Shown: positions 2,657 to 7,192 of the stretch, one piece after another
How the letters are laid out: each line of letters starts with the position of its first letter
Numbering within the stretch: position 1 is the stretch's first letter
Assembly: GCF_027000115.1 (NCBI RefSeq)
Contig: NZ_JALTON010000057.1
Span: 1-34,069 of the forward strand
Source: Thiohalobacter sp.
GTDB taxonomy: Bacteria; Pseudomonadota; Gammaproteobacteria; Thiohalobacterales; Thiohalobacteraceae
Direction: 5' to 3'
Length of the DNA stretch: 34,069 nucleotides
Notes under the pieces: generated by a model
Told to the model about the DNA's origin: nothing
Databases searched by the model: none
Seen by the model: the letters and a program-made list of their open reading frames with translations, nothing else
Program-made: the position numbers and the translations under genes

Positions 2657-3259
2657 TCAGCGCCCGCAGCCGAAGCGGCGCTCCAGCCAGTAGTCGATGC
2701 TCACATAACGTCCGCCGCCGATGAAGAACAGCGTCAGCAGCATGATGAAATAGGTGGCCGCGAACTCGATGCCATTGTTCAGTACCACGAACGGCCCCTG
2801 CTCGGTGAGCCACGCGTAATTCCCGTATTCCTGCAGGATTTCCCGTGCCCGGGCCAGCCGCTCGACGGCGGCCTGGGCGTCGGCACAGTTGAACAGGCAC
2901 ATGGTGGGGTCGGCGATGGCCTGCCAGCCGTGTTGCCAGTGGACGGTGACCATGGCAACGATCATGGTGACCATCAGCGGGATCGAAATCCAGCGCACCG
3001 CCAGGCCGACCAGCAGCAGGACGGCGCCCAGCACCTCGCTGGAGGCGGCCAGGAAGGCCATGAGTTCCGGGAAGGGCAGGCCCAGGCCCCAGTCGGGATT
3101 GCCGAACCAGGCAACCGTGTTCTCCCAGCCGCGAAACTTGTTCATGCCCGCGACCCAGAAGATGGGGACCAGGTACAGCCGCAGGGCGAGTGGCGCCAGG
3201 AAATCGAGGTGGCGCGCGCGGTCGAGCAGGCGCTGCAGCGAGCAGAGCAGTCCGGTCAT
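2657..3259 (-). CDS. DoxX family membrane protein (HvfX-like), last gene of the MNIO RiPP operon
   Basis: About 200 residues with four predicted membrane segments: around LALRLYLVPIFWVAGMNKF, ELMAFLAASSEVLGAVLLL, a segment starting ISIPLMVTMIVAMVTVHW, and AATYFIMLLTLFFIGGG. The conserved DoxX features (R near the first helix, FxxAGxxKF-like turn, E in ASSEVLGA) are visible. DoxX proteins commonly accompany DUF692/DUF2063 operons, where they are called HvfX; the molecular role is unknown but the location is the inner membrane. The ATG at 3259 is preferred over a GTG at 3292 because GAGGGG lies 7 bases upstream. A 90-base gap separates it from the upstream gene. Confidence 0.9.
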   Translation of the reverse strand: MTGLLCSLQRLLDRARHLDFLAPLALRLYLVPIFWVAGMNKFRGWENTVAWFGNPDWGLGLPFPELMAFLAASSEVLGAVLLLVGLAVRWISIPLMVTMIVAMVTVHWQHGWQAIADPTMCLFNCADAQAAVERLARAREILQEYGNYAWLTEQGPFVVLNNGIEFAATYFIMLLTLFFIGGGRYVSIDYWLERRFGCGR

Positions 3260-3349
3260 GATGCGTCCCCTCGTTTCGCCTGTGCTGTTCACACAGACAG
3301 ACGCCGGCCCGTTTGGTTCCAGGTTGGCGTCGACAATCGGAGAGGCAGA

Positions 3350-4873
3350 TCAGCCGTGGCTTGCGCGCTCGGAAACGCTGATGGACGGCGTGGGTTCGGG
3401 GTACACCTGGTCGAGGGTCACGGAATGGCCGGCCTCGGTGACCACGCGGGCATGTCGGCGGCGCAGTTCGCGCGGGGAGCTGACGCCGCAGGCATGGGCG
3501 ATCACGCCGACCTCATGGACCAGATTGCGTACATAGTTGGCCACGCGAACGGCCTTGTCCGCGGGATCCAGCCCGCGCTGGAGTCGACGGTCGTGGGTAG
3601 TGATCCCGGTGGGGCAGGTGTCCTTGTTGCATTGCAGGGCCTGGATGCAGCCCAGCGCAAACATGAAGCCGCGTGCCGATACCACGAAATCGGCGCCCAC
3701 GCACAGTGCCCAGGCCACGCGATCGGGCGTGATCAGCTTGCCGGAAGCGATCACCTTGACGCGATCGCGCAGGTTGTATTCCAGCAGCTTGTTGACAGTC
3801 AGAGGCAGCGCCTCGTTGAGGGGCATGCCCATGTTGTCGATCAGACTCATGGGTGCGGCACCGGTGCCACCCTCGGCACCATCGATGGTGATGAAGTCGG
3901 GGGCCGACTCGATGCCGCGGCGGTGTACCTCGCAGAACAGGTCGTCCAGCCAGTCCAGGGAGCCGATCACGGTCTTGAAGCCGACCGGCTTGCCGGTGAC
4001 CGTGCGGATGCGCTGGACCATGTCGAGGATGTCACCGACCGAATTGATCTCCGGGTGCCGGTTGGGGCTGATGGAGTCGGTGTGCACGGGAATGCCGCGG
4101 ATGTGCGCGATCTCCTCGGTGACCTTGGCCGCCGGGAGTATGCCGCCCTTGCCGGGCTTGGCGCCCTGGCTGAGCTTGATCTCGAACATGCGCACCTGTT
4201 CATGCGCGGCGACCGCGCGCAGGCGGTCGTCGCTCAGCCGGCCGTGCTCGTCGCGAACGCCGTACTTGGCGGTGCCGATCTGCACCACCAGGTCGGCACC
4301 GCCTTCCAGGTGATAAGGCGACAGGCCGCCCTCGCCGGTGTTCAGCCAGCAGCCGGCCAGGTTCGCGCCCCGGGAAAGGGCCAGAACGGCCGGCCGGGAC
4401 AGGGCGCCATAGCTCATGCCGGAAATGTTCAGGATGGAATCGGTTGTGTAGGGCTGTTCGCAGAAGGGGCCGATGGTCAGCTCTCTCGGCGGTGCCGCGT
4501 CCTCGCCCAGGGTCGGGAAGGCGCAGTTGACGAAGAAGACGGTGCCGGCCGGGCGCAGGTCCCGGGTGGAGCCGAAGGGCACGGTGGCGTCCACGTTCTT
4601 GGCGGCGCGGTAGACCCAGGAGCGCTCCGCGCGATTGAAGGGCAGCTCCTCGCGATCCATAGCGAAGAAATACTGGCGGAAGAAGGTGCCCATGTGTTCG
4701 AAGAAGTAGCGAAAGCGCCCGATGACCGGATAGTTGCGTCGGATCGCCTGCTTTGTCTGGGTGACGTCGAGGATATAGAGAACGACGACTGCCAGTACGC
4801 CGCCGCCGAGCGCGAGTACGAACAGGGCGGACAGGACCTCGAGCGCGGTGAACAGGAATTCGGATTGCGGCAT
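3350..4873 (-). CDS. FMN-binding glutamate synthase family protein with N-terminal membrane anchor
   Basis: A 507-residue protein with one N-terminal hydrophobic segment (about residues 8-36) followed by the FMN-binding TIM-barrel domain of the glutamate synthase large subunit. Visible family motifs are GMSYGALS, EIKLSQGAKPGKGG, SPNRHPEI and TIDGAEGGTGAAP. A Cys-x5-Cys-x4-Cys motif (C409, C415, C420) matches the 3Fe-4S site of GltB. There is no N-terminal glutaminase domain and no neighbouring GltD, so it is not a classical glutamate synthase; its substrate is unknown. The ATG at 4873 is chosen because AAGGAG precedes it by 8 bases; an in-frame ATG at 4906 lacks one. It lies between hvfC and the DoxX gene on the same strand, so it may be an accessory redox enzyme of that operon, although the 112-base gap leaves room for its own promoter. 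Confidence 0.9.
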   Translation of the reverse strand: MPQSEFLFTALEVLSALFVLALGGGVLAVVVLYILDVTQTKQAIRRNYPVIGRFRYFFEHMGTFFRQYFFAMDREELPFNRAERSWVYRAAKNVDATVPFGSTRDLRPAGTVFFVNCAFPTLGEDAAPPRELTIGPFCEQPYTTDSILNISGMSYGALSRPAVLALSRGANLAGCWLNTGEGGLSPYHLEGGADLVVQIGTAKYGVRDEHGRLSDDRLRAVAAHEQVRMFEIKLSQGAKPGKGGILPAAKVTEEIAHIRGIPVHTDSISPNRHPEINSVGDILDMVQRIRTVTGKPVGFKTVIGSLDWLDDLFCEVHRRGIESAPDFITIDGAEGGTGAAPMSLIDNMGMPLNEALPLTVNKLLEYNLRDRVKVIASGKLITPDRVAWALCVGADFVVSARGFMFALGCIQALQCNKDTCPTGITTHDRRLQRGLDPADKAVRVANYVRNLVHEVGVIAHACGVSSPRELRRRHARVVTEAGHSVTLDQVYPEPTPSISVSERASHG

Positions 4874-4985
4874 GGCCAGTGCTCCTTGGCTGGAATGAAC
4901 CGGCATGCCTGAGTTAACGGCCTGTTCACTCCCTTTCTTGAAGGGAAGCGGATGCTTGCGTGACGGGAGGGCCGGGTTCTTGCGT

Positions 4986-5780
4986 TCAGATGGGAGCGCG
5001 GGCGCCGCAAAGGACGCCGCGTTCGCGCCAGTCCTCGAGCTGACTGCGGCCGGCCTCGACGACCTGGCCGGGATCCGGGTGCTGAAGTTCCCCGGCGACC
5101 CGTTCCAGAGCGGAAATCCCCGTCAGTTCAATGTGTTGGCCTGATTCCTCCAGGCCGTTGGCGAGCAGGTCCAGGAGCCGGGCGCTGACTGCATTGAGGT
5201 GCAGGAAATGCACTGCGTCCTCGTGATCGCGATAGACCACGAGCCAGGTGGGGGTATCCGGTGGTGCTTCGGGACGATAGTCGGGGCCGATCCGGTGCAC
5301 GGGATAGCGATAGGCCAGCGGCCAGGCCAGCGGCGAGACCACAGGGATGCCGGTGAGAAGGTCGCCTGCCGGATCCAGGTCGGCCGGCAGCGGAGCGGCC
5401 TCGGCCACCGACAGGGCGAGTTCGATCCATTCGTAGTGGGCCAGCTCGCGCAGGAAGGGCGGGTCTTCCGGACGCTCGCCGCGCACCTCGTCGAGATAAC
5501 GCAGGAACTCGCGAGGGATGTCGAGAAAGTAGGGCGAGTGGCAGCGGTGGCGGACGAAGAAGTCCCGCACCAGGGCGTGCCAGTGATCGTCGTCGAGCAG
5601 GCGGCGCAGCACCGGGAGGGTGTCAGCCAGGAAACTGTCAATGTTGTTGTAGAAGAGTTCCCGGTAGACAGCCATGCGGCGGTCTTCCACGTCCGCCGGA
5701 GGCGGCGCGTGCTCGGGATCGCGGATGTGTGCCGCGAAGGCGAACTGCCGGGCCTGGAAGTCGGGCCGTGGTTCAGCCAT
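4986..5780 (-). CDS. hvfC: DUF2063 protein, MNIO partner (HvfC-like)
   Basis: 264 residues of the DUF2063 family. The N-terminal region ([17 protein letters not shown] then [25 protein letters not shown]) is the family's signature helical domain; the C-terminal half has a winged-helix-like segment ([13 protein letters not shown]). In characterised MNIO systems this partner forms a complex with the DUF692 enzyme and recognises the precursor leader. The start overlaps the hvfB stop by 8 bases (ATGGCTGA) and has GGAGG 9 bases upstream, indicating coupled translation with hvfB. Assignment rests on family and context; no catalytic residues are expected. Confidence 0.92.
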
Positions 5781-6630
5781 GTTGCCGCGCCTCCTGGCCG
5801 TCGGTGGTCCATCTGGCCTGCAGTTCGCGGATGGTGTCCAGTTCGTCCAGCAACTCGTCCAGTGGCGGGATGTTGAAGTCGCGCTCCAGCAGGGTGGGAA
5901 TGACGCCGAAGCACTGGTAGGTCCGCTCCAGCAGCCGCCATACGGGATCGATGACCGCGGCCCCGTGGGTGTCCACCAGCAGATCCTCGGCCTCGCGGTA
6001 GTGACCGGCAACATGCAGATAGGCGATGCGTTCGCCCGGAATGCGGGACAGGAAGTCCTCGGCGTCGTAGCCGTGGTTGATGCTGTTCACGTAGACGTTG
6101 TTCACGTCCAGCAGCAGATCGCAGTCGGCCTCTTCCAGAACGGCATTGAGAAAGTCGATTTCCTCCATCTCCTTGCCGGGTGCGGCATAGTAGGAGATGT
6201 TCTCGATCGCGATGCGGCGTTCGAGGATTTCCTGGGTGCGCCGGATGCGGCCGGCCACGTACTTCACCGCGTCGCCGGTGAAGGGAATGGGCATCAGGTC
6301 GTACAGGTGTCCGTCATCGCTGCAATAGCTGAGGTGCTCGGTGCAGGCGCGGATGTCATGTTCGTCCAGGAACTGGCGCAGACGGTGCAGAAAGGCCTCG
6401 TCCAGGGGTGACGGCCCACCCAGCGACAGGGAAAGACCATGGGTGACGAAGGCGTGCCGTTCAGTAAAGGCGCGCAATGCCTTGCCGAAGCGGCCGCCTA
6501 CCCCGATCCAATTCTCCGGTGCGATCTCGTAGAAGCCGATGCTGCCCGGATCACGCTCGGCGAGCGTGTCCATCAGGCTGCGACGCAGACCCAGGCCGGC
6601 GCCCTGGACGGGGTAGACGGAAGTGCTCAT
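5773..6630 (-). CDS. hvfB: DUF692 multinuclear non-heme iron oxidase (MNIO; HvfB/BufB-like)
   Basis: 285 residues of the DUF692 family, which fold as a TIM barrel and use two or three irons to oxidise cysteine residues of a RiPP precursor. Candidate metal and active-site residues are visible at the usual places: APENW (37-41), HGLSLSLGG from 64, EHLSY (98-102), IENISYY with E143, LLLDVNN with D175 and NSINHG with H187, YLHVAGH with H206/H210, DTHG with H222, and LLERD with E249. In HvfB-type enzymes the product at EGKCG motifs is reported as an oxazolone-thioamide. The gene follows hvfA by 10 bases and has no clear Shine-Dalgarno sequence, so it may depend on ribosomes finishing hvfA. Confidence 0.96.
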
Positions 6631-6640
6631 CGGCGGTGGC

Positions 6641-7015
6641 CTACTGCTTCATGCCGCCGCACTTGCCTTCCTTCATCTTGGAAGTGGCTTTCTCGGCCTT
6701 GGTCATGCCGCCGCACTTGCCCTCACCGCATTTGCCTTCCTTCATCTTTGCCGCGGGCTTGTCGGCCTTGTTCATGCCGCCGCACTTGCCCTCGCCACAT
6801 TTGCCTTCCTTCATCCTGTCTTGCATCTTGGCAGCGGGCTTGCCGGCCTTGTTCATGCTGCCGCACTTGCCTTCCATTTCAGCCGTCATGTAGCCGCCCG
6901 ACAGTTCGGTGCTGCTGAAGGGGTTGTCGGCGGCGATGGCGCCGGTGGACAGGCTCGTGGCGAAGGCGGCACCGAGTGCCACGGCCAGGGGTTTGCGGGT
7001 AGATTGGTTGGACAT
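6641..7015 (-). CDS. hvfA: RiPP precursor with six EGKCG motifs (HvfA/bufferin-like)
   Basis: A 124-residue secreted precursor. Residues 1-29 are a Sec signal peptide (basic start, hydrophobic core [10 protein letters not shown], cleavage near AIAA). The mature part is Lys/Gly/Met-rich and contains six cysteines (51, 73, 78, 96, 101, 119), every one inside EGKCG; two pairs are fused as [12 protein letters not shown]. Spacers such as [11 protein letters not shown] repeat between them. EGKCG is the motif modified by HvfB-type MNIOs, giving copper-binding peptides in studied relatives. The ATG at 7015 is chosen because GGAGG lies 8 bases upstream; an in-frame ATG at 7030 overlaps that site. First gene of the operon; a 177-base gap precedes it, where no confident promoter was identified. 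Confidence 0.95.
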
Positions 7016-7192
7016 TGGGAGAGCCTCCATGGAACGTTCTTGTCGTGTCGGGGCCGCTAGCCGCCGGTGATATGGCGCTGCCCCGGCCTGCCTGCCGGAA
7101 ACGGGTCCGGTGCCCTGTCAGCCATGCTGACCATTCTCTGACCGCAGCCCGCGCGGAATGGTTCCCGGGATGCGGGTTGCGGGAAACCGGTG

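Follow-up and report, generated by a model that had tools for sequence, protein, structure and literature searches.

Methanobactin, the product of the MbnABC system, is a small chalkophore for uptake that carries oxazolone/thioamide pairs, and its Cu(I)-binding heterocycles are derived from cysteine by an MNIO enzyme. Cysteine-derived heterocycles that are made by an MNIO and bind Cu(I) are also expected of the precursors with EGKCG motifs (Buf_EGKCG, oxazolins and captophorins). This family, its two-motif repeats and its variable motif number have already been described (PMC12452194, PMC12538549), and NCBIfam already holds a model for the doublet of motifs (NF050137). In the relatives that have been studied, the EGKCG cysteine undergoes a four-electron oxidation performed by an MNIO/DUF2063 pair, and HvfA, FonA and NgoA acquire a 5-thiooxazole at each EGKCG motif and bind copper (PMC13097082, PMC13419390). 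MmrA loses 4 H per cysteine, with the thiooxazole assigned only tentatively (PMC12538549).

The window analyzed here, which is the whole stretch of 34,069 nucleotides from Thiohalobacter sp., contains a complete hvf operon. As in the HvfA/oxazolin system of nontypeable Haemophilus influenzae, hvfA, hvfB and hvfC share the operon with the DoxX gene hvfX, and the precursor has six EGKCG cysteines (all modified in H. influenzae) and a Sec signal peptide, putative here. The motifs of H. influenzae HvfA form three doublets (2-2-2), whereas those described here are grouped 1-2-2-1 (PMC13419390). Also unlike H. influenzae hvfABCX, the present operon has a glutamate-synthase-like gene between hvfC and hvfX, and its precursor scores under the HvfA equivalog cut-off. 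The captophorin copper metallophores fontiphorin (FonABC) and gonophorin (NgoABC) likewise combine EGKCG motifs with an MNIO and a DUF2063 partner, but the seven motifs of FonA are grouped 2-3-2, as judged from reported hydrogen losses, and the minimal FonABC cluster is without the DoxX and glutamate-synthase-like genes that are both present here (PMC13097082). Doublet cassettes are also found in Microbulbifer MmrABC, where the number of cysteines ranges from 5 to 8 between MmrA strains, a narrower range than in the present comparison; the three MmrA cassettes are flanked by KKK, with no spacer methionine described, unlike in the present HvfA (PMC12538549). Finally, the Buf_EGKCG/oxazolin type built of 17-residue repeats resembles this system in having two EGKCG motifs per repeat, a variable copy number and a core RiPP-MNIO-DUF2063-DoxX cluster, but a β-helix has been reported for it (PMC12452194), whereas the unit here has 23 residues and no β-helix is predicted.

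Organization of the hvf operon

All genes of the operon lie on the minus strand in the order hvfA-hvfB-hvfC-(glutamate-synthase-like)-hvfX, with hvfA (6641..7015) first. hvfB (5773..6630), which starts 10 nt past the hvfA stop, encodes the MNIO (DUF692) maturase (Pfam PF05114, 350 bits; NCBIfam NF003818, 437 bits, cut-off 360), a homologue of the solved DUF692 protein structure 3BWW (E = 1.8e-73). The ATG of hvfC (4986..5780) falls inside the end of hvfB (8-nt overlap), and its product, the DUF2063/RRE partner, matches NF050145 (326 bits, cut-off 142), PF09836 and PF22106 and is a homologue of 3DEE. Downstream are the gene for an FMN-type glutamate-synthase-like protein (3350..4906; PF01645, 297 bits) and hvfX (2657..3292), which encodes a DoxX-family membrane protein (NF050144, 246.5 bits, cut-off 80). 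In a profile search, the only PF05114 match of the genome lay next to hvfA. A sigma-70 scan of the operon found no promoter, and terminator-like sites were no more frequent in it than in shuffles.

An hvfX homologue is present in 58 of the 88 hvf loci sampled (see below). The FMN protein with PF01645 alone has a homologue in 10 of the 88, located between hvfC and hvfX or after hvfX, and is an optional part of the hvf operon; the main text of the family survey (PMC12452194) does not mention it. Elsewhere in the window, two 183-nt direct copies lie upstream of argG (289-707). They contain a stretch of ∼40 nt (core at about 405-450) of palindromic appearance, GATGGGCAAAGACCCGAAGGGGCGTGCCCATC, which recurs at dozens of scattered sites across the genome, in the manner of a REP element.

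Motifs and repeats of the HvfA precursor

Translation of the hvfA coding sequence from 7015 to 6641 on the minus strand, stop included, yields a protein of 124 residues that ends in EGKCGGMKQ. A Shine-Dalgarno-like GGAGG (7024..7028) lies 8 nt 5′ of the ATG at 7015. A putative Sec-type signal peptide of about residues 1-29 (6929..7015) can be read from the sequence, with a basic n-region, a hydrophobic stretch and an AxA-like site. The six cysteines (residues 51, 73, 78, 96, 101 and 119, with steps of 22, 5, 18, 5 and 18) all fall in EGKCG and are grouped 1-2-2-1, exactly as the first-pass annotation had described them: a single motif at Cys51 (6860..6874), a doublet at Cys73 and Cys78 (6779..6808), a second doublet at Cys96 and Cys101 (6710..6739) and a terminal single motif at Cys119 (6656..6670), all on the minus strand. 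Both doublets lie in matches to the NF050137 profile. Because 200,000 shuffles of the HvfA protein never gave more than one EGKCG per shuffle, the six observed are not due to chance.

At the DNA level, the motifs are part of a minus-strand array of direct repeats (6657..6875) with a 69-nt (23-residue) unit. The three copies, at 6657-6725, 6726-6794 and 6807-6875, have spacings of 69 and 81 nt, and the second and third match the first at 86% and 71% identity; the longer spacing, 69 + 12 nt, reflects four extra residues, QDRM, inserted in the first spacer. A shorter 26-nt repeat family has spacings of 54, 15, 54 and 15 nt. The direct-repeat search thus recovers the spacings of 54, 69 and 81 bases noted previously, and TRF independently detects an array at 6657-6815 (period 69, score 241).

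The 47 spacer residues include 8 methionines and 13 lysines, and the same annotation had proposed these as possible additional Cu(I) ligands. This proposal has to be given up as a general one, as 21 of the 79 arrays compared below lack spacer methionine; conserved spacer methionine and lysine ligands were rejected on this basis. To our knowledge, lysine is not an established Cu(I) ligand. The present array is merely methionine-rich, with 1.33 Met per motif, and 72 of the 78 others have less. An AlphaFold2 model built from a 40-sequence alignment (mean pLDDT 50) contains the signal-peptide helix (residues 8-23) only and no strands, and the core of HvfA is predicted to be disordered.

Family assignment and proposed function

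HvfB, HvfC and HvfX each score above an NCBIfam equivalog cut-off, and the precursor exceeds that of the doublet domain, NF050137 (KCGExKCG_twice), with 42.0 bits against 19.5 over three stretches. This match and the hvfB, hvfC and hvfX neighbors bear out the name hvfA given at first reading. The HvfA equivalog model of the H. influenzae type (NF050188) gave 45.2 bits, under its 95-bit cut-off, and the precursor is therefore placed in the wider family only. The MbnB model TIGR04159 gave 49 bits on HvfB against a cut-off of 325, which leaves the system outside the methanobactin class, and the 23-residue unit and strandless model likewise separate it from the 17-residue, β-helical type. The cluster is an oxazolin/captophorin (Buf_EGKCG) cluster, and both the 23-residue unit and the 1-2-2-1 order are within the variation of that family. 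HvfA is an uncharacterized but well-resolved addition to the EGKCG metallophores.

We consider it about 90% probable that hvfA encodes an HvfA-family RiPP precursor that carries HvfBC-made 5-thiooxazoles, binds Cu(I) and buffers copper. The assignment follows from the equivalog-level scores of hvfB, hvfC and hvfX, from the adjacency of the sole PF05114 gene to hvfA and from the biochemical study of clusters of the same type; modification, copper binding and the buffering role are what we infer by analogy with those relatives. In the proposed mechanism, HvfC as the RRE partner and HvfB as a diiron MNIO would carry out a four-electron oxidation at all six EGKCG cysteines, each of which would become a 5-thiooxazole before Sec export. 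The first-pass annotation had asked for the modification state of the peptide but did not name this conversion of the KCG cysteines, which is the key chemistry. The mature peptide, periplasmic or secreted, would then bind Cu(I) via ring-N/S pairs and buffer excess copper. With less confidence, the doublet may be the minimal working unit, either as two adjacent thiooxazoles per Cu(I) or as the recognition unit of the enzyme, and the single motifs and spacers may vary freely through unequal recombination of 69-nt units.

Motif number among orthologues

Orthologues were drawn from 80 GTDB contigs with the closest HvfB relatives and from eight genomes of the same family, 88 loci in total, a sample made up of relatives of the present HvfB rather than drawn at random from the family as a whole. 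Precursors were taken from upstream of hvfB; 79 were distinct, and 78 had complete arrays. The 79 precursors contain 2-14 motifs in 38 arrangements. The exact order 1-2-2-1 was found in none of the other precursors of the sample, but arrays in which singles flank doublets are common, and ten carry singles at either end. Of the five pairs that share at least 95% HvfB identity, two agree in motif number and three differ; at 85-90% identity, 9 of 42 pairs agree. In Neptuniibacter, the arrays hold 4, 5, 5, 6 and 7 doublet units of 51 nt and differ by whole units. Their spacer variants are homogenized within species: every full unit of L096 has DKASKS, and those of L093 mostly have DKAEKS. These sequences support a rapid change of motif number between species through a recombination-like gain and loss of whole units, in line with the copy-number change that the repeats had suggested from this one gene. 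The constant motif number that the first-pass annotation had listed among refuting outcomes is not what the orthologues show.

Decaying arrays were seen in Nitrosomonas (L028, L031, L033, L049, L052, L062 and L073; L027, cut by a contig end, was ignored). Six of the seven retain a single intact doublet alongside degenerate motifs such as EGKSG and EGKDD, and L028, of the same clade, keeps 2-1-2. The reduced arrays were rejected as proof that the doublet is essential, since on the tree they could stem from no more than two independent reductions, too few for a strong test. In another genome (G253), two HvfA precursors stand in tandem before one hvfB (L129:5753-6073 and 6396-6839, minus strand), in the same rnf-nth-DUF1841 neighborhood as that of the window.

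Conservation and possible roles of the doublet

At least one contiguous doublet, counting C[GA], is present in 77 of the 78 complete arrays, the exception being L061, and 73% of all motifs in these arrays sit in doublets or triplets. As judged from these arrays of close HvfB relatives, it is the doublet, not the number of motifs, that is conserved. That doublets form paired metal sites, as suggested in the first-pass annotation, is plausible but unproven. By analogy with methanobactin, two adjacent rings might make a single Cu(I) site. By native mass spectrometry, fontiphorin, with seven modified cysteines, bound up to four copper ions; one or two are reported for gonophorin, and the authors favor a stochastic copper-binding network (PMC13097082). 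The reported loading does not support one copper per doublet through an ordered stoichiometry, nor does it decide the matter.

The doublet might instead be conserved as the substrate of HvfBC, for recognition or for repositioning between adjacent cysteines, and not as a paired copper site, an alternative to which we give a serious but somewhat less than even chance. FonBC modified a two-repeat peptide but not a one-repeat peptide, and a change of the Glu between two motifs (E6) impaired its turnover (PMC13097082); in our sample, 173 of 175 doublets retain the Glu that joins their motifs. Against this, MmrBC still modifies doublets in which one Cys has been mutated to Ala (PMC12538549), and so not every system strictly requires a doublet for modification; single motifs, moreover, occur in 55 of the 78 arrays. 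The presence of singles and doublets in one peptide makes HvfA a convenient internal test of whether the paired motifs are a copper site or an enzyme substrate.

The other alternatives dispense with either the modification or the selection of the motif. The methionine- and lysine-rich spacers and the lack of a predicted fold beyond the signal helix would suit an unmodified, low-complexity, metallothionein-like periplasmic protein that binds metal through Cys, Met and Lys while HvfBC acts on something else. We regard this as very improbable, given that the precursor gene directly precedes hvfB and hvfC in nearly all loci, as it does here, that the EGKCG precursors studied in the papers cited here are modified at each motif and that the EGKCG residues are conserved but spacer methionine is not. 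Hardly any weight, and slightly less still, is given to the repeats being slippage or low-complexity noise that carries the motif without selection: the units do expand, contract and homogenize within species, as those of any tandem array would, but arrays with entirely different spacers still share a nearly invariant Cys, flanking Gly and Glu-Gly-Lys, and in Neptuniibacter the differences among motif codons are almost all synonymous. An HvfBC-modified, Cu(I)-binding precursor remains the preferred reading.

Orphan two-motif precursors

Stand-alone precursor genes have been mentioned in the family survey (PMC12452194). A second EGKCG precursor is encoded in the same genome (L103:7947-8246, minus strand; G000:C53, about 42446-42745), flanked by a CusA/CusB/TolC-type operon on one side and a CopA-type ATPase gene with a MerR regulator on the other, the sole MNIO gene being far away. 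Its two motifs, EGKCG-x7-EGKCGG, are 12 residues apart and form no doublet. In a genome of another family (G214), a similar orphan (L128:6679-6993, plus strand) lies after a gene for a CopA-type ATPase; a MerR gene is close by, and the single MNIO gene is on a different contig. This setting fits a putative role in copper detoxification with modification in trans. A more elaborate scheme, which we consider speculative and rather unlikely, would make the doublet the working unit, with the singles of the 1-2-2-1 order acting differently and the single HvfBC acting in trans on the doublet-free orphan of the CusAB/CopA-like island, which would pass copper to the exporters; the flanking singles of 1-2-2-1 precursors might be spares, might bridge chains or might be left unmodified. 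A related orphan in G001 (L104:7928-8236, minus strand) is located outside any copper-efflux island of this kind.
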